From the IMG/VR virus record IMGVR_UViG_3300031456_000215, positions 1 through 51,592 of that record: DNA of 51,592 nt. One strand, written 5' to 3'. The notes below the pieces were generated by a model that was not told where the DNA came from, did not search any database, and saw nothing but the letters and a program-made list of their open reading frames with translations. Source of the stretch: a virus. Made by a program: the position numbers and the translations under genes. Shown in pieces: positions 17,194 through 28,024 of the stretch. Position 1 is the stretch's first letter. Every line of letters starts with the position of its first letter.

Positions 17194-17295
17194 CCCGCCC
17201 CCAAACTTCGGGGCGCGCTCTCTCTTAGGGGGGTGCGTCTTTGCCTATCCCCAGGTGTCCACGCCCTCGTTGAGGGCCGCAAGCATCTTGTTCAG

Positions 17296-17317
17296 CCCGG
17301 CGGTTACGACCGCCGGG
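17296..17317 (+). terminator. Terminator hairpin after the XRE/DUF397 pair
   Basis: CCCGGCGGT and ACCGCCGGG form a perfect 9-bp stem with a TACG loop, followed by TTTCTGCT. Confidence 0.65.
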
Positions 17318-17360
17318 TTTCTGCTGCCTCCAGCGATGATCACACGCAAGGCATGAAGAA

Positions 17361-17382
17361 GCCCCCGACCGGAGTCGGGGGC
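17361..17382 (-). terminator. Terminator hairpin downstream of the HTH gene
   Basis: GCCCCCGAC and GTCGGGGGC pair around CGGA. It lies just beyond the minus-strand gene that ends at 17388, with a TTC-rich continuation. Confidence 0.65.
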
Positions 17383-17387
17383 GGGGT

Positions 17388-17834
17388 TCAAACCAGCTTC
17401 CGGCGCTTGGTGCCTCGCGTCTGGTCGTGCGCCGCCCGGCATTCGGGGCAGCGGCATCGGAATTTGCGGTAGGTGTGAGCTGTACCATGGTTCAGGCTCG
17501 GGTCACGTCCAGTCGTCAGAGCGGTGTCAACCCTGTTGGCCCACAACTCGTCCCAGTGGCGGCGGGCATGGATTGCCGCGACCGATACACCTGCCGTCTC
17601 AGCGGCGTCTCGCAGCGGCACACCGGAGGAGAGGTCGGCGATCAGTCGGCCCTCTACGGGGCGGAACATCGCCAGCATCAGGCCGCGCCTGTATGCGAGG
17701 GTCTCGCGGCTGTGGGCCTGTCGGGGGATTTCAGCGCGGTCGCCGTAGCGGTACTGCGTCTCTGGGGCAAGAGCCTCATAGGGCATCTGGGGTTTTGGCC
17801 GATTGTGGACGCGGGTCCGGTTTCGATTGGTCAC
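17388..17834 (-). CDS. Helix-turn-helix protein with C-terminal cysteine knuckle, 148 aa
   Basis: The middle has a typical helix-turn-helix (GVPLRDAAETAGVSVAAIHA, then RHWDELWANR). The C-terminus FRCRCPECRAAHDQTRG resembles a small zinc knuckle common in actinophage DNA-binding proteins. The GTG at 17834 has GGAG 8 nt upstream, but that GGAG forms the right arm of a hairpin (17842-17859), so translation may be structure-controlled. Confidence 0.65.
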   Translation of the reverse strand: MTNRNRTRVHNRPKPQMPYEALAPETQYRYGDRAEIPRQAHSRETLAYRRGLMLAMFRPVEGRLIADLSSGVPLRDAAETAGVSVAAIHARRHWDELWANRVDTALTTGRDPSLNHGTAHTYRKFRCRCPECRAAHDQTRGTKRRKLV

Positions 17835-17841
17835 GTTTCAT

Positions 17842-18247
17842 CTCCACATGCGTGGGGAGCATCAGTCTGCGGTCGCGGGCCTGAAAACTCCAGTATGGCA
17901 GGCAGGCACCAGGATGGGTGTCCCTTGGGAATCCCCGCGTTGGCGGGGACAAAACCCGAACCCTCATCGAGAGCGTGAGGTGGGTGACCTCCATGTAAGT
18001 GGAGAACATGACAACCAGTTGCTTGACAATCTGGTGCCGTTGGCTTACCCCCGCGGTGGCGGGGAGGGCTTCAACCGTTGATACAACAGCGGCTCATCCT
18101 CGCGTGAGCGAGGAAATGACTGCCGGTAAATCTTGACCTGATCGCCCAGTTCAAATGGTGTAACCGCAATGAGGACCGGCAGCCGGAACCGACGTTACCC
18201 CTTCACGGTTGGCCGGTCAAGGAGTCGTCACCTCCCCAAGTGAGGAG
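17842..18247. repeat. Cluster of six related short hairpins resembling degenerate type I-E CRISPR repeats
   Basis: Stem-loops occur at 17842-17859, 17932-17949, 17989-18004, 18049-18064, 18097-18114 and 18232-18247. Typical cores are TCCCCGCGTTGGCGGGGA, CCCCGCGGTGGCGGGG and TCCTCGCGTGAGCGAGGA. Several left flanks resemble CTCAT and right flanks GGAG plus CAT/AA. Stem changes are compensated on the other arm. Centre spacings are about 90, 56, 60, 49 and 134 bp, so only some approach the 61-bp CRISPR period, and there is no cas gene. I call it a repeat cluster, not a working CRISPR. A 42-codon frame at 18008 with GGAG before it is probably chance. Confidence 0.5.
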
Positions 18248-18294
18248 CCGCTGGGTTGCTCGTAGCGTCCAGGGCCGCAAGATGAGTGACCTGT

Positions 18295-20106
18295 TCAGCC
18301 ATCGGTTTCGGTCTCCTTCGAGGTGGGGGTGTGCTCGGCTCGCCACACGTTGACCTTCGGTTTACGCGGCATCATCGGGGACCCCGCAGGGCCCTTGATA
18401 TAGGCGTCCACCACGATCCACTTCCGCTGCCCGCGTTTGGGTCCATACGCCTGGTTGCGGCGATGCGGCTCGACCCACCACTGATGCTGGTAGACCCGCC
18501 CGGACTTGTCCTTCTCTACTCGGCGCGGGTTGGCGGGCCGGTCGACGTTGACGAGCCGCACCTCAGGCAGCGGGCGTTCGGGCCCTGCCGGCCCGCCCTT
18601 CTTCCGCGTCTGCTTCTTGTGCGCTTTCGGGGCGGCCACGGTCGATTGCGCAATGTAGGACGAGGTCCGCATGGCAGTGAACGCAGAGCCGAGAATCGCG
18701 AGGATGGCGCCGCCCGCGCGGGCGCCGTGGGTGAGGTCGCCGCGGGTGGTGTGGATGGTCTCGGGAAGGGTGCCGGTGGTGGCGGGCACGATCTTGGTCT
18801 CATAGTCGGTCTTGAACCGGTAGCGGGTGCGGTGGCACCACAGCACCACCTGGAAGGTGCCGTCACGGGAGGAGCGGCCCCAGGAGATCGCGTCGAAAGC
18901 CGCATCCGAGTACAACGACGGGATACCGCCCTCGAAGTACATGAAGCCGGAGCGGCTGTCGAGTTCGGCCAGGTCCACTTGTTCGGCCCCGGCCGCGAGG
19001 GTGGCGACCATGTCCGTTGACTCCCGCGAGAGCCACCAGAGCCGGTCATGATTGAGGGTGTCGCGGACCTTGAACATGATCTCGGGCAGCATCGACTGGT
19101 TGCGGATCTGGTCGATTTTGAGAGCGGTCTCGGTGATGTCGGCAATGGCCTTGGGGAGCATCCGCGGCTCGATCACGATGTTCCACGGGATCGTGTAGTC
19201 AATGCCCATGTCCCCGTCGCCGTCGAGGTTCGCTCCCTCGATCTCGTGATACGTGGCGACACCGGTAACGCGCGAGGCCACGATGTCGTCGCCGGAGAGG
19301 TCGGTGAGGACTGGCACCCGGTGGTCGGCGACGTAGAGGCTCACGGACTGGTCGGTTCGGGCGGCTTCGGCCCATGCCGGGTCGTGGATTTTGACCGGGG
19401 CGAGGTCGAACGGCAGCCCTGAGACCTTGAATTCGGTGCCGTTGGAGATCACGACCACGTTCTTGCTGGGTTGACCGGGCGGGCCCAGCAGGGCGGTGAG
19501 TTGGGCGTCGGTGCCTTTGACCATGCCGCGCAGTTCCGCGGGGAAGACGAGGCCAGCTCGCGGGCCGCCGTCAGTGTCGATAACGGCGGCGAGGACCGGC
19601 ATGGGCCGGGACCGGAGGTAATCGCCCCATTCGGGGAAGGTCAAGAACATGACATCCCAGACGGGGAACATCCCGATCCTGAGCATAGGGACGCTGACCC
19701 GCTGTCCCGGTTCGCCGTTCTCGGCGCGCTGCTTGAGCGCGTCCATGTCGGCCTCGTGGACGAATCCGGCGCAGACCGCACAGGCGCTCCACGGGCTGTC
19801 GAGCTTATCGAACTCGTAGGCGAGGTTATCGTCTTGGTCCAGGAGGCCCGCGGCGACCGCGCCCTTGACGGGGGTGAAGATCTCCACAATCGGTTTCGCG
19901 GAGCAGAAGTCACAGACTTGGGAGATCTTGGAGTCGTCGGTGGGTCGGTCGATGGGGACGAGGCTCGCGCACGCGGCGTCGTCTTCGGGGGTGACGTGCT
20001 CCCATTCGGTGACCGTGGCTCCGGGCTGGCGAATGCTGCGCAGTGGCCTGCGGCAGGTCGCGCAGATCTTCTGCCCGGCGAGAGCTGCGTCTTGCCTCTT
20101 GCTCAT
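18295..20106 (-). CDS. Large zinc-ribbon protein of unknown function, 603 aa
   Basis: The N-terminus carries zinc-ribbon pairs: ICATC early, CDFC near residue 60 and CAVC near 105. A long central region has no known fold I can name. The C-terminal ~80 residues contain VEPHRRNQAYGPKRGQRKW and VDAYIKGPAGSP. A similar ending (HWVRPH-like, RNQAYG, GP-G-P) recurs in my memory in proteins of actinomycete plasmids and phages, and in relatives labelled AcrVA2-like. That link is weak and from memory. ATG at 20106 follows CAGGAGC. It lies next to the CRISPR-like hairpin cluster. Confidence 0.6.
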   Translation of the reverse strand: MSKRQDAALAGQKICATCRRPLRSIRQPGATVTEWEHVTPEDDAACASLVPIDRPTDDSKISQVCDFCSAKPIVEIFTPVKGAVAAGLLDQDDNLAYEFDKLDSPWSACAVCAGFVHEADMDALKQRAENGEPGQRVSVPMLRIGMFPVWDVMFLTFPEWGDYLRSRPMPVLAAVIDTDGGPRAGLVFPAELRGMVKGTDAQLTALLGPPGQPSKNVVVISNGTEFKVSGLPFDLAPVKIHDPAWAEAARTDQSVSLYVADHRVPVLTDLSGDDIVASRVTGVATYHEIEGANLDGDGDMGIDYTIPWNIVIEPRMLPKAIADITETALKIDQIRNQSMLPEIMFKVRDTLNHDRLWWLSRESTDMVATLAAGAEQVDLAELDSRSGFMYFEGGIPSLYSDAAFDAISWGRSSRDGTFQVVLWCHRTRYRFKTDYETKIVPATTGTLPETIHTTRGDLTHGARAGGAILAILGSAFTAMRTSSYIAQSTVAAPKAHKKQTRKKGGPAGPERPLPEVRLVNVDRPANPRRVEKDKSGRVYQHQWWVEPHRRNQAYGPKRGQRKWIVVDAYIKGPAGSPMMPRKPKVNVWRAEHTPTSKETETDG

Positions 20107-20198
20107 GGGGTAATTTTGCTCCTGTCTAGAGTCTTCTGCGATTCGGACAGGCGGCCTCGGGGAATCGTTGTGGAAGTTCCCGAGGCCGCATTGGTGTG

Positions 20199-20477
20199 TC
20201 AGGCGCGGATACCGTTCGTTCGGAGTGCCTCGGTCCAACGCCGATAGGCCGCGCGTTCTGCGGCCGAGGCTTCTATGCCCTGGCCTCCCTCGAAGGCCCA
20301 CATGCGGTCGGTCAGGTCAAGCAATTCGTCGGCGGTGCCGCGGACCCGCAGCGATCCGGCCCGGCCGCGTTCGGTGGCAACGTCGGTCAGGGCGTCGCCG
20401 TCTTGCAATGCTTCCGCGAGCACGCCGGGAAGCGTCACGGTGTAAGTGGGCAAAGGTTGCTTGTCAGTCTGGTCCAT
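20199..20477 (-). CDS. Hypothetical protein, 92 aa
   Basis: ATG at 20477 follows GAAGGGAA. The product begins MDQTDKQPLPTYTVTLPG and is a small alpha/beta protein (VLAEALQDGDALTDVA, then GTADELLDLTDRMWAFEGG). It sits upstream of the 603-residue protein on the same strand, with a 92-bp gap. No family recognised. Confidence 0.58.
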   Translation of the reverse strand: MDQTDKQPLPTYTVTLPGVLAEALQDGDALTDVATERGRAGSLRVRGTADELLDLTDRMWAFEGGQGIEASAAERAAYRRWTEALRTNGIRA

Positions 20478-20556
20478 TCGTTGTTTCCCTTCAGTTTCGG
20501 GCAATGGGGTAATGGAGTTTGGCCTGGTAGCGGCTGAGGGGTTTCGCGGACAACGA

Positions 20557-20586
20557 AGGCCCCGGCTGGCGTACCGGCCGGGGCCT
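20557..20586. terminator. Terminator hairpin
   Basis: AGGCCCCGGC (20557-20566) pairs with GCCGGGGCCT (20577-20586). It lies between the HTH gene ending at 20676 and the next minus-strand gene. Confidence 0.75.
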
Positions 20587-20675
20587 GGTGCCCGCAGGAG
20601 CGGGCAGACGGTTGAACCGCGCCAGTCGCTGAAATGGTTAGCGGATCGCCTCAAAGGCTACCGGCTTCAGCCAGG

Positions 20676-21278
20676 TCAGGAGGTCTTGTCACCGGGTAGC
20701 GTTGCGGGAATGCGCCAGACGCGGCGGCGCTCGGGCGTCCACCAGGCCGGGGCCGGGACGCGAATCAGCGAGTCCCCGTCTGTGGCTTCGCGTTCGAGGT
20801 AGTGGAATCCGCCCTCTTTCACCCGCCAAGGCGTCGGCTCGGCGCTGGGATCGTAGGCGAGGACTTCGCGATTTTCGATCAGGGTTGAGAGCCATCCGCG
20901 CAACCGGCGAAGCCGCTCGGGGGTGAACTCGCTCGTGCCTTCGAGGACTGTGCGCAGGTAGTCACGAGACCAGGTGTAGGGCCCGGAGTTGATATGTCGC
21001 GAGGCGACTTCCCAGGGCCAAAACGGGTCGATCACGCTGCGGGTCGGCATCGGGGCGTCGGGGTCTTTCAGCCACCGGCTGATAGTCGCCGGGCCTTTGC
21101 CTTTCCGGCGCGCGAGTTCGCGGACGCTGATCTCGCCGGAGCGGTAGGCGGCCAGCTCGGCGGGCGTGAACCGCGGTTCGGCCACTGATTCCCCCCTTTT
21201 CCGCCTCGGTACCGCCCGAGGATACCCAGTGTGGGGCAGCGCCGGAGGGGCTGGAGGCAGGGTCAGGAGATCGCTCAT
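20676..21278 (-). CDS. Helix-turn-helix DNA-binding protein, 200 aa
   Basis: Residues ~40-75 form a helix-turn-helix (RFTPAELAAYRSGEISVREL, then ARRKGKGPATISRWLKD). The rest is an arginine- and tryptophan-rich domain (PFWPWEVASRHIN, RLRRLRGWLSTLIENREVL). ATG at 21278 is 11 bp from a perfect palindrome (21289-21308) that spans the gap to the divergent HNH gene, making autoregulation through that site likely. The same palindrome recurs at 26930. Confidence 0.65.
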   Translation of the reverse strand: MSDLLTLPPAPPALPHTGYPRAVPRRKRGESVAEPRFTPAELAAYRSGEISVRELARRKGKGPATISRWLKDPDAPMPTRSVIDPFWPWEVASRHINSGPYTWSRDYLRTVLEGTSEFTPERLRRLRGWLSTLIENREVLAYDPSAEPTPWRVKEGGFHYLEREATDGDSLIRVPAPAWWTPERRRVWRIPATLPGDKTS

Positions 21279-21753: not shown

Positions 21754-22110
21754 ATGGACTCCCCTTGGCACACCGCGACGATGCGCCACCACATTGAGCA
21801 ACGTCAGATCGAGCCGCTGATCTCACCGCCGCTTCCCGATCGGGTCATCGCCCGCCTGGCGGTCCAACAATTCCTGGACGGGACGGCCGCTTTGGCGCCC
21901 GACCTCACGGCGATTGCCGAGCTGTGGCGCGAAGGCGCGGAAGCTGACCGCGCGGACTTCGGTGAGCTGTCCTGGTCGATCTTCGAGTGTCGCGGCACTT
22001 CGTGTCGCACTGCGGTTCAGGAGTTTCTCAACGGCTGGGCCGCCCAGATCGAGGCGGCGACCGGCGCGGCTTTCGCGGTGCCGCGCTACGAGCCCGGCCA
22101 GCAGGCGTGA
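21754..22110 (+). CDS. Hypothetical protein, 118 aa
   Basis: ATG at 21754 (MDSPWHTATMRHH). The product is helical (RVIARLAVQQFLDGTAALAP, then LTAIAELWREGAEA) with a SIFECRGTSCRTAVQEFLNG segment. It is the last rightward gene of this block. No family recognised and no clear ribosome site beyond a G-rich leader. Confidence 0.5.
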   Translation: MDSPWHTATMRHHIEQRQIEPLISPPLPDRVIARLAVQQFLDGTAALAPDLTAIAELWREGAEADRADFGELSWSIFECRGTSCRTAVQEFLNGWAAQIEAATGAAFAVPRYEPGQQA

Positions 22111-22500
22111 GAACCGGCCAGGTTCACCACCGGCTAGCCTGAGAACCGGCTCGTGCGCGCCCTATAAGCGGCCCGTGCCCGCGCGGGACCCTCCCGGCCC
22201 TGAACCTCCAGGTCCCAAATGCACCATAAGTACCTTCTATAACATATGCTACATATATACCTTTAATCACCATATGGTCTATAGATCACGATTAGCACCT
22301 TCATCACGATTGCCGTAATCATGACGATATGTCCGCTTTCAGGATCGGTTCATAGCCTCTGACCAGGTAAGACGCTCTCAGTTGCCCCGTGTGCCTCTCA
22401 AATTTTGGTACCCTTACCTGGTTATGGTCACGTCATTCGTGCCTCTCAGATTGGCCACTAGGCCGCTCTGTCGACGTTTTGGCAGGTAGTTCTAGGCAAC

Positions 22501-22536
22501 AGCCAACCCGCACGGTGGGCACCGTGCGGGTTGGCT
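22501..22536. terminator. Very stable hairpin
   Basis: 16-bp perfect stem with a GGGC loop; likely a bidirectional terminator. Confidence 0.75.
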
Positions 22537-22615
22537 CGTTCAGGTCGCTATCTGCTGTGGGCCCACAAGAGAACGGGCCCGCGGAACGCGCTCACGCGCT
22601 CCCTGGACAACGCAA

Positions 22616-22643
22616 AACCCGCACCGGTCACCCGGTGCGGGTT
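22616..22643 (-). terminator. Terminator of the leftward orphan-gene block
   Basis: 12-bp perfect stem located 28 nt beyond the stop codon at 22671 on the minus strand. Confidence 0.75.
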
Positions 22644-22670
22644 GCGTCATGTTCGGCCTGTGCGGGCCCG

Positions 22671-23102
22671 CTAGCGCTCCTCGTACTCCGTGGCGAACGC
22701 GCTGAAACGCTCGTACTCGGATTCGAGGAATCCGCGCGCTTCGTCGTCGTACTTGATGCCTTCCGCTTCCGCGTCCGAGTAGTCGCCTGCGAGGCTGGCG
22801 CGGTAGAGGATCTCGCCATCGTTCGCGAGGAACGTTGCGAGCGTGCGCGTCATGCTCTCGTGAGTGCCTGGGGTCGCGTTGCTGCGGAGATCTTTACCCG
22901 AAATCAAGAGGTCGCCGTCCACGTAGACGCCGTACAGCCAATCGTTGTCCGCGTACGCCTCTCTGATCGTGCCTCCCCCAACCGCAGCCATCTTGATGAT
23001 GATCTGCGCTTCCGGCTCAATTGTGTTTCCTCCGTACTGAGTCGGAATTTCAATTTCGTATTCCGACTCAGTACGGTAAGCTCCGAAGTAATCCGTTGCC
23101 AT
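22671..23102 (-). CDS. Hypothetical acidic protein, 143 aa
   Basis: ATG at 23102 (MATDYFGAYRTESEYEIEIP). The protein is strongly acidic, with beta-strands early (AQIIIKMAAVGGG, WLYGVYVDGDLLISGKD) and a helical glutamate-rich end. Base and codon use is AT-richer than in the replication and structural genes. No family recognised. Its leader contains CTGGGATAGGGG, a diverged form of the block's recurring box. Confidence 0.6.
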   Translation of the reverse strand: MATDYFGAYRTESEYEIEIPTQYGGNTIEPEAQIIIKMAAVGGGTIREAYADNDWLYGVYVDGDLLISGKDLRSNATPGTHESMTRTLATFLANDGEILYRASLAGDYSDAEAEGIKYDDEARGFLESEYERFSAFATEYEER

Positions 23103-23180
23103 GAATGATTCCCTATCTCGCGTCACGCCTGCCATGATTTTAGCAGGCACTGAGATAACCCCTATCCCAGATAAAAGCCT

Positions 23181-23206
23181 ACGGGCCCGCAATTGCGCGG
23201 GCCCGT
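23181..23206 (-). terminator. Terminator hairpin
   Basis: ACGGGCCCGC and GCGGGCCCGT pair around AATTGC, just after the stop at 23222 on the minus strand. Confidence 0.75.
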
Positions 23207-23221
23207 GAGCCAATAACCGAG

Positions 23222-23416
23222 CTAGCAGACCTCTATTGACCCGCTAAGAGACATTCTTTCTACTACCTCCATAGTCTCAATTTCTATGACACTCCCGTAC
23301 ATGTGAGCCGGAAGCGCGAATATCAGCAATTTATGTGCCTCCATTTGCGTCATGCGCTTGAGTCCGGCGATATTGGGTCTATATTCGTGAGAGAATGAGA
23401 CAACGAAATTTTTCAC
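23222..23416 (-). CDS. Hypothetical protein, 64 aa
   Basis: The GTG at 23416 follows AAAGGGG at 7 nt. The product begins with VKNFVVSFSHEYRP and has a long strand/helix pair (HKLLIFALPAHMYG, then VIEIETMEVVERM). It is framed by a terminator on each side, which supports it as an independent small gene. Unknown function. Confidence 0.5.
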   Translation of the reverse strand: MKNFVVSFSHEYRPNIAGLKRMTQMEAHKLLIFALPAHMYGSVIEIETMEVVERMSLSGSIEVC

Positions 23417-23442
23417 TGCATACCCCTTTCCAGATAAAAGCC

Positions 23443-23470
23443 AATGGGAGCGGCGTAGGCCGCTCCCATT
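23443..23470 (-). terminator. Terminator hairpin
   Basis: AATGGGAGCGGC and GCCGCTCCCATT form a perfect 12-bp stem with a GTAG loop, 13 nt after the stop at 23484. Confidence 0.8.
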
Positions 23471-23483
23471 AACCAACATCCGC

Positions 23484-23819
23484 CTAGGACTTGTTGAAAG
23501 CCTTAATGACTTCCGCGCACTCAGCATCCGTGAAACCTTGGAACTTGATATAGACACGGGAGGTGTACGTGCGTCCCATGCCGTTGATATTCCATCCGAA
23601 ATGCTGTTGCTCGTAACTCCCATCCGCATCGAAGAGCAATTGCGCGGAATGCGGAGTGTTGAACTTGACAGCTTCAATGAGTCCATCTTCCGCAATGTCC
23701 GCATCGGGAATTTCGTAATCGTCGTAAACCTCATCGAAAGTGATTTCTTCCGGGAACTCTTCGTATTCTCCCTCATCTTCAATGTACGACTTGAATTCGC
23801 GAACGATGATCTTCCGCAT
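23484..23819 (-). CDS. Hypothetical acidic protein, 111 aa
   Basis: The N-terminal half is extremely acidic (SYIEDEGEYEEFPEEITFDE, then VYDDYEIPDADIAED). The C-terminal half is mixed (RVYIKFQGFTDAECAEVIKA). Acidity of this kind is seen in DNA-mimic inhibitors, but no specific match is claimed. ATG at 23819 shares one base with the upstream stop (TAATG). Confidence 0.6.
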   Translation of the reverse strand: MRKIIVREFKSYIEDEGEYEEFPEEITFDEVYDDYEIPDADIAEDGLIEAVKFNTPHSAQLLFDADGSYEQQHFGWNINGMGRTYTSRVYIKFQGFTDAECAEVIKAFNKS

Positions 23820-24007
23820 TACTTCACATCCTTGATATCGAAGAAATTCAACCCGTGCGCGTTGCTGGTTTCGATCATTTCCGCCACGTGCTCGCGGATT
23901 TCACGCCGGATATATGCGGAATCAGACGACCCCAGCTCGTACTTTTCCACGTAAGCCTTGACCTGCTCTGGCGTCATTTCGAGACTAACCGTCACCCGGA
24001 TTTTCAT
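23819..24007 (-). CDS. Hypothetical protein, 62 aa
   Basis: The start MKIRVTVSLEMTPEQVKAYV is preceded by GAGGGGAG. The short strand followed by two helices suggests a ribbon-helix-helix-like or small regulatory fold, but this is not certain. It is coupled to the acidic protein downstream. A TCCTATACCG box and terminator lie upstream. Confidence 0.58.
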   Translation of the reverse strand: MKIRVTVSLEMTPEQVKAYVEKYELGSSDSAYIRREIREHVAEMIETSNAHGLNFFDIKDVK

Positions 24008-24033
24008 TGCAACTCCCCTCTATCTTGCTTCGG

Positions 24034-24073
24034 TCCTATACCGGAAGCGCGACACGGGACTAGGGCCCGTGTC
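24034..24073 (-). promoter_or_regulatory. Intergenic module: terminator hairpin plus TCCTATACCG box
   Basis: The hairpin GACACGGG (24051-24058)/CCCGTGTC (24066-24073) ends the upstream gene. The box at 24034-24043 then lies 26 nt before the ATG at 24007. It is one of several like modules in this block. Confidence 0.6.
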
Positions 24074-24095
24074 CGCTCTCAACTACAGGAACGCG

Positions 24096-24470
24096 CTACA
24101 GGATGTCGTACGACAAATGCTGCGCCACAAGCCGCAACGCGTGGGTTTGCAGCGCCGCCACGGCGGCGGGTGCCAGTGGGCCCGACTCTTTCCAGTCCTG
24201 CCCGTACCCCATGCCGATTGCGATTTCACACAATCCTTGAATGAAACGCTTTTCGGCATTGATGAGGCACAGCCGTTGCCCACGGAAGGTATGCACGATA
24301 CGCGACTCACCTTCAATCTCAAGCGTTGCTTTGAACTCGCCCCACTTGATCGGGTCGAAAGCGCTCATGTCATGAGGCGCGTTCAGGCACTCGACACGGA
24401 CCGTGATTCGCTTTTTCTTGTCATTAAGGAAATTGGGAATTTCATCCTCAACCCAAGCAAAATCAGTCAT
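24096..24470 (-). CDS. Hypothetical protein, 124 aa
   Basis: ATG at 24470 follows AAAGGAGA. The product begins with an acidic aromatic stretch (MTDFAWVEDEIPNFLNDKKK). A beta-rich core follows (RITVRVECLNAP, EFKATLEIEGESRIVHTF) and a helical end (AAVAALQTHALRLVAQHL). No family recognised. Confidence 0.58.
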   Translation of the reverse strand: MTDFAWVEDEIPNFLNDKKKRITVRVECLNAPHDMSAFDPIKWGEFKATLEIEGESRIVHTFRGQRLCLINAEKRFIQGLCEIAIGMGYGQDWKESGPLAPAAVAALQTHALRLVAQHLSYDIL

Positions 24471-24495
24471 TGCAAATCTCCTTTCATACTCTCTT

Positions 24496-24539
24496 TCCTA
24501 TACCGAGATGAGGACACGGGCCCGTAAGGGCCCGTGTCC
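24496..24539 (-). promoter_or_regulatory. Intergenic module: terminator hairpin plus TCCTATACCG box
   Basis: The hairpin GGACACGGGCCC (24512-24523)/GGGCCCGTGTCC (24528-24539) has a perfect 12-bp stem and lies after the stop at 24549. The box at 24496-24505 lies 25 nt before the ATG at 24470. Confidence 0.65.
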
Positions 24540-24548
24540 CGCTCTCAC

Positions 24549-25262
24549 CTATAGGAAATTGCTTAGGATTCTTCGCCAAGCGTCGTCCGGAATGTCGCCG
24601 TTGGTTACCGAATAGGTAACCGGCACTCTGTCGAGCCGCGTCCACCACGTACCGACCAATTCACCCGGGGCACCATTAGCCCAACTAGTGGACGGCGACG
24701 CGGAATTAGTAATCGACAGGACGGCACTAAGTACCGTCATATCCAAAGGGAGACTATCCGCTTTCACGCGCGAGACGGTTTCGTCCTCACCCTGTACGCG
24801 TCGAATCGTGAATTCGTACGGCTCACGGCCGACGACTTTAACGTCATGCGGTGGAATAACCCGCATACGCTCTAGGTCGCTGGTGAGCTTAAAGATTTCA
24901 TCGCGTGTACTCTGCGATTCCGAATCGAGCGCGCCATTGCAAAGTTCCGTCACATGGCCCGATACCGCGATAGTCGCGACAAACCAATACGTCCCCATTG
25001 CCGCGAGTGACTTTCCGCCGTTGTTGCACGAGTGCGCGAAAAGCCACCCGTTGAAGCTCTCGTAGACTTCGATTTCGAACGGCTCTAGTGCGTGGGCCAT
25101 GACGTCGGCCGCCTTATGCGGGCAGTGTCGGTCACGTCCGTACGTGCACGAACCGTCCTTACATGCGATCCCGTCTCCGATTACGATTCGGTCCCGGATT
25201 TCCTGCGCGACCTTATAAACGCCGTAAGCGATATTCTGTCGCTGCTTGTCGTTTTCAGACAT
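24549..25262 (-). CDS. Hypothetical protein with cysteine/histidine motif, 237 aa
   Basis: ATG at 25262 follows GAGGAG. Near residue 35-55 it has CKDGSCTYGRDRHCPHKAAD, a possible metal site. A hydrophobic core (YWFVATIAVSGHVTELC) and a C-terminal beta domain follow (WWTRLDRVPVTYSVTNGD). It is the longest gene of the orphan block. Unknown function. Confidence 0.58.
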   Translation of the reverse strand: MSENDKQRQNIAYGVYKVAQEIRDRIVIGDGIACKDGSCTYGRDRHCPHKAADVMAHALEPFEIEVYESFNGWLFAHSCNNGGKSLAAMGTYWFVATIAVSGHVTELCNGALDSESQSTRDEIFKLTSDLERMRVIPPHDVKVVGREPYEFTIRRVQGEDETVSRVKADSLPLDMTVLSAVLSITNSASPSTSWANGAPGELVGTWWTRLDRVPVTYSVTNGDIPDDAWRRILSNFL

Positions 25263-25280
25263 GCATTTCTCCTCTCGTAT

Positions 25281-25328
25281 TCCTAAATCGGATTGAGACA
25301 CGGGCACTCAAAGAGTGTGGTTCCCGTG
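25281..25328 (-). promoter_or_regulatory. Intergenic module with diverged box TCCTAAATCG
   Basis: CACGGG/CCCGTG arms (25299-25304 and 25323-25328) enclose an inner CACTC/GAGTG hairpin. The diverged box at 25281-25290 is 18 nt before the ATG at 25262. Confidence 0.5.
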
Positions 25329-25339
25329 CCGGAATCCGA

Positions 25340-25771
25340 CTAGGTTTTACGCCCGTCTTCCCAGTGCTTAAGCACGTGCAAACCGAAATCATGGAAGATT
25401 TCTTTCAAGCGATCTTGTGCGGCGTACGCCAACTCAAGTCCAGTCGTGCATCCGACCGCTTCGCCTTCCGTGTATCGGACTGGCTTAAATCTCACCCCGT
25501 CTAGTTCCATGACTGCGATGATTGCCGACTCATTCCGCGGGATAGACTCACTTACCGCCGTGCGGAGATACAGCGCGTGGTTAGCCGAGATTGACTCGTC
25601 TGGAATCCAACTCGCATTGACTGTGTTCTCTGTGAATTCGATTAGCTTGAGAAACCCCAAGTATGCGGGCCCGTGAATCGACAACGTGTGCCAATCATCG
25701 GTATAGCGCCGCTTTTCAAGCCACCCGGTAAGACACCAGGGTTTCAACTCGAATTGCTTTGACTCTGACAC
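25340..25771 (-). CDS. Hypothetical protein, 143 aa
   Basis: The GTG at 25771 follows GTGGAGC at about 6 nt; the longer in-frame extension upstream crosses the regulatory box and is rejected. The product has beta-rich segments (FELKPWCLTGWLEKRRYTDD, AIIAVMELDGVRFKPVRYTE) and a helical end (AAQDRLKEIFHDFGLHVLK). No family recognised. Confidence 0.55.
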   Translation of the reverse strand: MSESKQFELKPWCLTGWLEKRRYTDDWHTLSIHGPAYLGFLKLIEFTENTVNASWIPDESISANHALYLRTAVSESIPRNESAIIAVMELDGVRFKPVRYTEGEAVGCTTGLELAYAAQDRLKEIFHDFGLHVLKHWEDGRKT

Positions 25772-25791
25772 TAGAGCTCCACTCTTCCGGT

Positions 25792-25840
25792 CCCTATACC
25801 GGATGAAAACGCACGCGCCCACTATTTGACCCGTGCGCCA
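25792..25840 (-). promoter_or_regulatory. Intergenic module with box CCCTATACCG
   Basis: A CACG/CGTG-armed imperfect hairpin within 25810-25838 (GCACGCGCC against GACCCGTGCGCC) lies after the stop at 25858. The box at 25792-25801 lies 20 nt before the GTG at 25771. Confidence 0.5.
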
Positions 25841-25857
25841 TCATTGGAATAGGCGGA

Positions 25858-26220
25858 CTATTTCGGCTCCAAACGAGCGTCCGGCCCCACCCACATGACC
25901 GCTGAATTGTCGGGAAGCGAGGCGGCATAGCCGACCGTGATTCCCTCAGCATCGGTAATAAGCGGAAACTTGCGTTTGAGCTGGAATACAGCCCAAGTAC
26001 GCCAATGCGGCGTACCGTAGTGATCGCTAATCGCGTGCTCGATAGCCTGAGTAACTCCAGACTCCCAACTTGCATAAGCGAGAATCTGAAACGTCGTCTC
26101 CCAATCCAACGTGATAAGACACGTTGCCTTGTAGGCGAAATCTTCAATGTCGTATGAACGCGACATGTCGCGCTTTCCGCCAGACATGTAAGTGAACAGT
26201 TCGTATTTCATAAACTGCAT
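25858..26220 (-). CDS. Hypothetical protein, 120 aa
   Basis: ATG at 26220 with GGAAAGAG before it; a second ATG at 26211 is possible. The product includes SRSYDIEDFAYKATCLITLD, a helical QAIEHAISDHYG and a C-terminal strand region. It is AT-richer than average. Unknown function. Confidence 0.55.
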   Translation of the reverse strand: MQFMKYELFTYMSGGKRDMSRSYDIEDFAYKATCLITLDWETTFQILAYASWESGVTQAIEHAISDHYGTPHWRTWAVFQLKRKFPLITDAEGITVGYAASLPDNSAVMWVGPDARLEPK

Positions 26221-26234
26221 ATCTCTTTCCGTAA

Positions 26235-26281
26235 TCCTATACCGACAACTAGGGAACGGGCCCGCTATATGACCCGTTCCC
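26235..26281 (-). promoter_or_regulatory. Intergenic module: terminator hairpin plus TCCTATACCG box
   Basis: GGGAACGGG (26252-26260) pairs with CCCGTTCCC (26273-26281). The box at 26235-26244 is only 14 nt before the ATG at 26220, leaving a very short leader if it is a -10 element. Confidence 0.6.
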
Positions 26282-26301
26282 CGTTATCCGGAATAGGCGG
26301 A

Positions 26302-26478
26302 TTACTGGAATTCGCCCATCAATCGGAGTGCTTTCCTACGCGCGTTATCCGCCTTGCGAACCTCCGAATACAGTTCAGCGGCACCATGCTTGAGAGCACA
26401 AAACCACTTACCGCACTCGCAGATCTCCGTACGCGTCAACTCGCGTAGCGAGCGCTCCGGTAGGATCGCGTGGTTCAC
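26302..26478 (-). CDS. Small protein with cysteine motif, 58 aa
   Basis: The GTG at 26478 overlaps the upstream gene's stop by four bases and follows GGGGAGGG. The product contains RTEICECGKWFCALKHG, a CxC...C...H arrangement that may bind zinc, followed by a basic helix (EVRKADNARRKALRLMGE). It is a likely small nucleic-acid-binding protein. Confidence 0.6.
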   Translation of the reverse strand: MNHAILPERSLRELTRTEICECGKWFCALKHGAAELYSEVRKADNARRKALRLMGEFQ

Positions 26479-26804
26479 CTTCCCTCCCCTTGTGGGTCAG
26501 GCTGGTGACGTTGGGACCGGTCGCTTGCGTCCGTCAAAACCTCGCGACCGGTCCGCCACTGCATAACCAGCATCGGACGTGACTTCTCGACTTGCGTCGG
26601 GAAGTAATCACTCCAGTACCAATGTGATGTGTCGTCAATCGGCACGCCTTGCAGCGCTGCCAACGTTGCTTGCGCAACGAGCGTGTCTCGCACGGGACGT
26701 GTGACCTGGTAACCCAGCTCAACGATCCGAGCGTCAACATGACGTGCCAGACGCACATGCAACGGAACTGGCGCGTACGCCCAATGCTGCCCATGATCGG
26801 ACAT
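26475..26804 (-). CDS. Hypothetical protein, 109 aa
   Basis: ATG at 26804 follows AGGGAG at 7 nt. The product has a helical middle (VRLARHVDARIVELGYQVT, then DTLVAQATLAALQG) and an aromatic segment HWYWSDYFP. It is the first gene of the leftward orphan block and coupled to the 58-residue gene. No family recognised. Confidence 0.58.
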   Translation of the reverse strand: MSDHGQHWAYAPVPLHVRLARHVDARIVELGYQVTRPVRDTLVAQATLAALQGVPIDDTSHWYWSDYFPTQVEKSRPMLVMQWRTGREVLTDASDRSQRHQPDPQGEGR

Positions 26805-26929
26805 AGGCAATCTCCCTAGCGTTTCGGCTGGTCAAACACTCTATGAAGCTTTCAAACAACACGCCCTAGTCCGCCACTTGCACGACCCCGGGGCCGTCCG
26901 GTCATCCAACCGAACACAGCAAGTGTTTC

Positions 26930-26949
26930 ATACAGGACTGGTCCTGTAT
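26930..26949. promoter_or_regulatory. 20-bp palindromic operator, copy 2
   Basis: Identical to the site at 21289-21308. Here the palindrome extends by one base pair on each side. It lies upstream of the leftward orphan block. Confidence 0.65.
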
Positions 26950-27647
26950 GAGGCGCCCTCGGGTCTAGGCTCCCTGCTCGTATTGACCAGCGGATACGCC
27001 GCGCCCATGCCGCGGCCCTGGTGACCCTCTCTCGCCTTCCCTACTAGGCGGGTGGGAATACCAGGCGGACGCGCTTAGGAGCGCGGCACAGTGTCACCAG
27101 GGCCCGCAGCGGCACACCAGGGAGCAACACGCGGCCGTCACGCGGCCTACGCGCGCGCCTCGACACCTACCTATAGAGGGCGCGTGGGAGGTGGAGCGGG
27201 GGGAGTCTCAGAACGTCACCAGGGAGCGCAGCGGGGGCGACAACGGGCCCAACCGCAAGGGGGTCACACCGTAAGGGGGGCGTATGCAAGGGCCATGCAA
27301 GGGGGTCACCCTATATACACCCATATGTCCAACAGCACGACTACTGATACACCAGTAAACTAATGATGATAATGATGCGAACATATAACAATGACTTATT
27401 AATGATGAATAACAACCATTCAACACGATAAACAATAAAACAATTGTCAATGCACCATTCAAACATATTCGCAATGAATTATATTTCTTTATACAATTCA
27501 ACAGCATTCACAACATAATCACAGCATACAAGCCTCAATGAATGCTTATGTCCCATTCATGCCTCAGGGGTGGGGTATGCCCCCATTTCTAATTCGTTCC
27601 CTACCGCAGCGGGATAGCGAAACACTTTCTACCTGGAGTTTCGTTTC

Positions 27648-27674
27648 ACCGGGGTAAGCAAGGTTTACCCCGGT
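27648..27674. terminator. Hairpin in the non-coding region
   Basis: ACCGGGGTAA pairs with TTACCCCGGT; possible terminator or structural element. Confidence 0.5.
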
Positions 27675-27805
27675 CCCACCTGCGGAAACAGGCGATTCTC
27701 GCGCGCGGGCGCGAGCGAACAGCACAAGCAGGTTGTCAAACATTGTCAAACGCTTTACCGCAATACACACTTACGACCGCGGACTTGATGGGTTTTCATT
27801 AGGGG

Positions 27806-28024
27806 ATGAACTTCCCCGCCGTCAGCCCCTGGATCGCCCTGGGTCTCATCGTTCCGGCCGTCGTCATCGCATTCGTCGCCGCCCTCGCTCTTCGTGGCGC
27901 GCAGCCGGAGCACCGGGCCGAGATTCTCCGTGCCCTCGCGGTTCTCGCGCTCGCGCTTCTCGCTCGGCGTTCGGTCACCAGATCGAGACCGCAGCGGAAG
28001 GGCCAGAACGGGCCTGCGGGTTAG
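27806..28024 (+). CDS. Small membrane protein, 72 aa
   Basis: Two hydrophobic segments (about residues 9-30, WIALGLIVPAVVIAFVAAL, and 42-55) are followed by a basic tail (RRSVTRSRPQRKGQ). The start is close to AGGGG. Its end overlaps the convergent next gene by four bases. Function unknown. Confidence 0.5.
   Translation: MNFPAVSPWIALGLIVPAVVIAFVAALALRGAQPEHRAEILRALAVLALALLARRSVTRSRPQRKGQNGPAG

Follow-up and report, generated by a model that had tools for sequence, protein, structure and literature searches.

What is a cluster of CRISPR-like hairpins doing on a phage genome that carries no cas genes? The window analyzed here (the whole stretch of 51,592 bases, a virus record with terminase, portal, and tape measure, and a serine-recombinase gene at its right end) raises this question through six short stem-loops, which a sequence-only reading had described as CRISPR-like, in part similar to actinomycete type I-E repeats, and interpretable as a decayed or mini array, a structured RNA, or a protein-binding region. 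Because the ends of the window coincide with gene ends, it looks like a trimmed provirus.

Identity, strand, and setting of the hairpins

Read on the minus strand, six hairpins were counted across 17841-18248, within 408 bp, with core spacings of 91, 56, 60, 49, and 134 nt from h1 to h6 (Table 1). A scan of 17776-18310 for stems with a pyrimidine left arm and a purine right arm, at least 6 pairs, and a 4-nt loop found 7 (h6 being counted twice, in two registers), whereas dinucleotide shuffles of the same range (n = 2000) contained a mean of 0.34 stems and a maximum of 4, with 0/2000 reaching 7, which confirms the presence of the hairpins. Standard pairs occupy 39 of the 42 positions across the six stems; when the 3′ arms were re-dealt among the hairpins, the mean was 34.5 and 39 was reached in 7/2000 deals, which bears out the proposal that the stems vary yet stay paired, under selection on structure. 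Among 200 shuffles, those folding as well as the hairpin numbered 19 for h1, 33 for h3, and 12 for h6.

Type I-E CRISPR repeats have a 7-bp stem, T-CCCCGC / GCGGGG-A, with a 4-nt loop, in a 7-4-7 register followed by a TGANCC-like handle. All six hairpins share a minus-strand register of 7 paired positions, a 4-nt loop, and 7 paired positions; h1-h5 are in register with the I-E stem, and h6 has a G-G first pair. The handle behind the stem scores 5/5 in h5 and h4, 4/5 in h1 and h3, 3/5 in h6, and below 3 in h2 on this strand, and register and handle occur together on one strand in five of the six. When both the 7-4-7 register and the handle were required, as a stricter I-E-like definition, these six were the only matches in the window, and the sister phage G001, the one long relative, had none.

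A covariance model, R1, was built from 40 repeats taken from arrays in other phages, with the window excluded, and the T-CCCCGC / GCGGGG-A stem was re-derived from these 40 repeats. In an unfiltered R1 search of the 51.6-kb window, the top four matches were h4, h5, h2, and h1, all on the minus strand (Table 1), whereas h3 and h6, which are weak hairpins, were absent from the matches at E ≤ 10; a search of G001 gave nothing below E 0.21. The I-E resemblance is thus upheld, and a repeat family is matched where the sequence-only reading had allowed that none might be. R1 scored h4 at 28.9 bits on the minus strand versus 14.4 on the plus strand, and h5 at 24.8 versus 8.1 bits, so that the reading strand is minus; on strand and function, the earlier account was off or incomplete. 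The degenerate I-E pattern is matched exactly by h5. An Rfam scan of the window returned 0 families, and cse1 and cas6e (PF09481 and PF08798) were absent from it, in agreement with the claim that the hairpins lack cas genes. The locus is nonetheless no ordinary I-E array, as it has no regular 61-nt period (134, 49, 60, 56, and 91), its stems differ, and it has no cas genes. The proposed spacings near 61 are present at 60 and 56, and the diagnostic spacing is instead 49.

Table 1. Hairpins, spacers, and neighboring features of the locus, from upstream to downstream on the minus strand
Feature	Positions	Core (plus coordinates)	Strand	R1 match
668-aa ORF, upstream of array	18295..20301		-	
h6, weak I-E-like repeat GCTCCTC-actt-GGGGAGG + tgacgac; outlier	18231..18248	18231-18248	-	not recovered
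Promoter-like TTGACC-N17-TAACGT, between h6 and h5	18192..18220		-	
h5, best-formed repeat: catt TCCTCGC tcac GCGAGGA tgagccg	18090..18118	18097-18114	-	E 6.2e-5
Spacer h5-h4, 20 nt, period 49 (canonical short-spacer unit)	18070..18089		-	
h4 repeat: gccc TCCCCGC cacc GCGGGGG taagcca	18041..18069	18048-18065	-	E 4.4e-6
Spacer h4-h3, 31 nt, period 60	18010..18040		-	
h3 repeat: atgt TCTCCAC ttac ATGGAGG tcaccca; C-A mismatch by loop	17981..18009	17988-18005	-	missed
Spacer h3-h2, 27 nt, period 56	17954..17980		-	
h2, likely terminal repeat: perfect stem, degenerate handle ttcccaa	17925..17953	17932-17949	-	E 7.7e-4
h1 repeat: atgc TCCCCAC gcat GTGGAGA tgaaacg	17834..17862	17841-17858	-	E 4.3e-3
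148-aa ORF, downstream of array	17388..17834		-	

The array is flanked by two ORFs, and h6 lies 47 nt past the stop of the 668-aa ORF. The C-terminal part of the latter resembles phrog_15934 (unknown function) and had 2 weak C-terminal matches in 296 class-level genomes; the 148-aa ORF has weak HNH and integrase PHROG matches at a C-terminal Cys/His motif and no Pfam match. Neither ORF, used as bait in viral contigs, found relatives, and the DNA of 17380-20301 had no direct relatives among named phages. A PADLOC defense-gene scan of 10 window ORFs gave three marginal matches only. The promoter-like site between h6 and h5 was not recovered by a stricter sigma-70 scan, and a TTGAC/TANNNT promoter was rejected as a class feature (1/81 other arrays, 1/405 random 130-nt windows). 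The right arm of h1 contains GGAG (17842-17845), the ribosome-binding site of the 148-aa ORF, ahead of its start, and Cas6e binding or cutting at h1 could control this gene. Elsewhere in the window, 22001-28000 has a G+C content of ~0.55 versus ~0.65 in the remainder and looks like a later acquired block.

The portal of G001 is 78% identical to that of the window, and its counterpart of 17252-20725 is ~1 kb of other DNA, which indicates that an exchangeable cassette carries the array. Disappearance of the stems from related phages had been named as evidence against the sequence-only reading; G001 does lack them, but it has other DNA throughout this interval, so that the whole cassette is absent there, rather than its stems decayed. 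Used as a query for the host, the window portal matched 27/394 genomes at a best identity of ~41%, with no close kin.

Short-period arrays and their targets

Searches of viral contigs with one degenerate I-E-like repeat and with two I-E-like repeats 38-54 nt apart returned 27 and at least 119 stretches, respectively, and yielded 141 loci among the matches listed. Neighbor spacings of strict hairpins in these 141 loci were 49 (51 cases), 50 (35), 43-44 (18), and 61 (59), the last being ordinary arrays; the two-repeat search spanned 38-54 by design, the genome-scan loci described below were searched at 49/50 only and bias any period count that includes them, and the 141-locus tally is the one to use. 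A period of 49-50 instead of 61 leaves spacers of ~20 nt. One Cas7 subunit holds ~6 nt of guide; the periods move in steps of ~6 nt, or one Cas7 stretch, so that a period of 49 corresponds to two subunits fewer than in a normal Cascade.

Handle-bearing short-period arrays number 81, in 78 of the 141 loci listed, a count that leaves out handle-less inverted CCCCCGC pairs (e.g., L043, L048, L055, and L058), which are probably not CRISPR. Terminator-like stems occur at most 75 nt past the last repeat in 62/80 arrays versus 112/405 random windows, and the handle score averages 2.67 in last repeats versus 4.72 in the others, as expected if only the stem of a last repeat is needed for cutting. The virus records of 49 hand-picked loci (of the 141) contained no cse1 (0/49). 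One cultured phage, Streptomyces phage ZL12 (GQ919031.1 82613-85050, L352), carries an unannotated three-repeat I-E-like array with periods of 61 and 49 and a terminator behind it. Four loci (L068, L084, L164, and L218) have a period of 43-44, spacers of 14-15 nt, and a common seed, GCTTGnTACTT, for which a target search found none. In Streptomyces phages SF1 and SF3 (L353 and L354), a 44-nt stretch is identical to the DNA just behind the L101 array, and no repeats were found in these stretches.

Bacterial genomes provided the hosts in which targets could be sought. When 84,980 species genomes were searched for a handle-bearing 49/50 unit, 64 stretches came up, and of their loci 44, spread over 43 genomes, were chosen; cse1 is present in 25/43 of these genomes, against backgrounds of 73/394 (the class of one host) and 83/199 (the genus Streptomyces). 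The own-host test required AAG, AAC, or AAT plus 10/10 seed letters (positions 1-5 and 7-11) between 6.5 kb upstream of and 0.5 kb inside the cse1 of the same genome, and covered 33 usable units in hosts with cse1, spacers with N being dropped. Such a match was found for 10/13 cas-adjacent units and for 5/20 units away from cse1 (15/20 being without one), whereas a swapped-host control gave 1/792 (Fisher p 3e-8 for 5/20). Some units of the short-spacer class thus match the cas promoter of their own host. The five non-adjacent matching units are L167 (Pantoea), L183 (Corynebacterium), L188 (Pectobacterium), L192, and L203. A prophage setting is clear for two of them, L167 (DnaB, O-like) and L188 (integrase, spanin, NinG); L183 has phage families of unknown function only, L192 one structural match, and L203 acetyltransferase-like matches only.

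In Pectobacterium, the phage spacer, AGTATTTCGGAAGTGCTCCA, and the cas-adjacent spacer of the host, AGTATCTCGGAAGTGCTTCA, share one target, AAG-AGTATTTCGGATGTG, ~385 nt before cse1. The two spacers differ solely at positions 6 and 18, the kink positions, at which Cascade flips the guide base outward. Pantoea and Corynebacterium likewise contain a host unit and a look-alike. PHROG families 3626 and 12690 (unknown function) occur near the array in both the Pantoea (L167:1367-1933) and the Pectobacterium (L188:1638-2144) prophage, and one of these proteins may be a partner gene product. When the search was restricted to the cse1 upstream region, a Streptomyces prophage seed, AGCCTNAGGGG, had a target with AAC in another Streptomyces, 319 nt ahead of its cse1; used as a genome-wide pattern, the conserved Streptomyces prophage seed was rejected (matches in 7/199 genomes, a number not above that of the reversed control, and never next to cas genes). 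Two gammaproteobacterial MAGs (L171 and L207) each have, immediately before cse1, a unit with the same 20-nt spacer; its promoter match is led by AAG in one MAG and by AAA in the other. When any of 110 cas-upstream regions was allowed as the target, and spacers with N were again dropped, 25/147 short units matched, versus 3 to 8 for shuffled spacers and 127/1471 for ordinary 61-nt spacers; given the last figure, this test is weak, and the own-host test was relied on.

The window itself contributes one exact unit of this class, h5-h4, with a period of 49, a 20-nt spacer, a full handle, and CreR-like short-spacer geometry. It departs from the class in its irregular periods, in the two repeats missed by the model, and in having no clear terminator behind h2; h6, at 134 nt, and h1, at 91 nt, are outliers. 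The degenerate handle of h2 makes it read as the terminal repeat, and RNA past h2 may run into the 148-aa gene. The spacer seeds are CTGTTnTATCA (h5), ACGGCnCCAGA (h4), and CCTCAnGCTCT (h3). No PAM with a full seed for the window spacers was found in the 110 cas-upstream regions, among which its host may not be represented; the h5 pattern had no target in 384 actinomycete genomes, and elsewhere in the 51.6-kb window none of the six spacers has a match with 10/10 seed letters. Matching the inter-hairpin segments to phages, as the sequence-only reading had envisaged, gave chance-like results for the two spacers compared with viral contigs, h5-h4 and h4-h3, neither of which had a match above chance with a PAM in a phage of like G+C: the former matched 20/20 in a viral contig of 42% GC with CTG at the PAM place, and the latter at most 23/31. 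As no target was found for these spacers, the cas-promoter reading of the window draws on the class, not on a target of its own.

Explanations of the locus

The locus is not a protein-binding oddity; it is real and informative, and both the mini array and the structured RNA were rightly named among its candidate identities. It is very probably an I-E repeat array of phage origin that depends on host Cas proteins. Whether it works by silencing host cas genes we judge, from the analysis of the class, to be evenly balanced, and on balance we favor the reading of the locus as a phage-borne set of cas-silencing guide RNAs, a CreR mimic that is partly decayed or diversified. CreR is reportedly the cas-regulating RNA of modulatory mini-CRISPRs. 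Under this reading, a minus-strand transcript of h5-h4-h3-h2 would be cut behind each stem by the Cas6e of the host, giving RNAs that start with the handle ATGAGCCG and end at the next stem; these would be short crRNAs, normal in their 8-nt 5′ handle but with spacers of 20-31 nt instead of 32. Loaded into host Cascade, guides of the class would send it to the host's own cas promoter by means of a PAM and an 11-nt seed with its 6th base flipped out. As pairing past the seed is predicted to be poor, Cascade would bind without a full R-loop, such that the cas genes would be repressed rather than cut. Bacteria reportedly repress their own cas genes with CreR in this manner, and phages appear to have copied it. 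The variation of the window repeats suggests either decay or a fit to the I-E systems of more than one host.

It is unlikely, if far from negligible, that the hairpins are instead RNA anti-CRISPR (Racr) decoys, I-E repeat mimics that would sequester Cas6e and Cas7 in inactive complexes and whose spacers would be irrelevant. I-E Racrs are experimentally known, according to PMC10651486, and the variation and uneven spacing of the window repeats are what solitary units might show, with h1 and h6 standing apart by 91 and 134 nt; the lack of targets for the window spacers in the window and the 110 cas regions, for the h5 pattern in the 384 actinomycete genomes, and for two spacers in the viral contigs fits decoys as well. 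Decoys would, however, need neither periods that cluster at 43-44 and 49-50 nor handles that are kept except in the last repeat, and short-spacer seeds are constrained across phages: pairs from different loci share at least 9/10 seed letters in 55/10676 cases for short spacers versus 17/174419 for long ones (a sample of 600 spacers), a sharing that can reflect common ancestry as well as a common target. A decayed ordinary mini-array, once aimed at rival phages and now non-functional, would account for the periods of 56 and 60 (near 61), for the diverged repeats, and for the two repeats missed by the model, and viral mini-arrays against related viruses are described in the review PMC11656645. 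We nevertheless consider such decay quite unlikely, as pairing was kept through change (39/42, a level reached by 7/2000 re-dealt sets), the 49-nt unit fits a widespread short-spacer class, and the two scanned spacers have no viral protospacer beyond chance.

Chance resemblance of an unrelated structured RNA or of protein-binding sites to I-E repeats would explain the poor matches of h3 and h6, as well as the overlap of h1 with a ribosome-binding site, but it is very unlikely given the exact 7-4-7 register and handle in 5/6 hairpins on one strand and the blind recovery of four of them by a model built from other phages. The guides could also act as a CreA-like antitoxin, repressing a toxin gene on the prophage itself; CreTA and CrePA, in which Cascade and a crRNA-like RNA repress a toxin, provide the precedent (PMC13131331 and PMC12737573), whereas the six spacers have no 10/10 seed match elsewhere in the window, which makes this role extremely unlikely.

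A more elaborate form of the CreR mimic, distinctly improbable in our estimate, would combine multiple guides, silencing the cas genes of several host strains, with h1 as a switch operated by Cas6e. The diversified repeats would then let one phage command the I-E Cascade of several strains; host Cas6e would bind or cut h1 and turn the 148-aa gene off, and silent cas genes would turn it on. If this were true, the cassette would not only suppress the host system but also serve as a readout of it.

Relation to known Cascade-guided RNAs

PMC13131331, PMC12737573, and PMC12948488 describe host CreR and cite Liu et al. 2023. Under our preferred reading, as a CreR mimic, the locus would share with it the crRNA-like unit, the partial cas-promoter match, and Cascade-mediated cas repression (PMC13131331), and the cas-adjacent short-spacer units fit CreR in their 10/13 own-promoter matches. 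Units of our class differ in residing on phages, away from cas operons, with several spacers per array and, for the window, a target that is putative. CreA (in CreTA and CrePA) is alike in that limited pairing guides Cascade to repression, but its target is a toxin gene, for which the window has no counterpart (PMC12737573).

PMC10651486 reports RNA anti-CRISPRs, two of them of type I-E, which, like the window hairpins, are phage-encoded RNA mimics of CRISPR repeats; Racrs are solitary there, whereas the window has six units in 408 bp and the class has seed-conserved spacers. The finder described in that source drops full matches at most 100 bp apart as arrays, so that clusters like that of the window would have been discarded. 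Viral mini-arrays, in turn, are also Cas-less, borne on viruses, and reliant on host Cas proteins, but they have host-identical repeats and spacers mostly against related viruses, according to PMC11656645; the short-spacer class has ~20-nt spacers, with members that match host cas promoters. CreR-like arrays carried by phages were not described in the open-licence literature that we searched, a scope outside which most subscription journals and preprints fall, and such an absence is weak evidence of novelty.

The phage uses of CRISPR named in PMC11656645 are decoy repeats and mini-arrays against related viruses. Our findings suggest a third phage use of CRISPR parts, in which truncated guides would steer host Cascade to silence the host's own cas genes. 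Support for it comes from the 5/20 own-host versus 1/792 swapped-host matches and from the Pectobacterium phage spacer, which differs from that of the host at the two kink positions only. The class offers a simple signature, namely I-E repeats at a period of 49 nt with a terminator behind them, and cas silencing by truncated guides would explain why phages keep guides that are too short for cutting.
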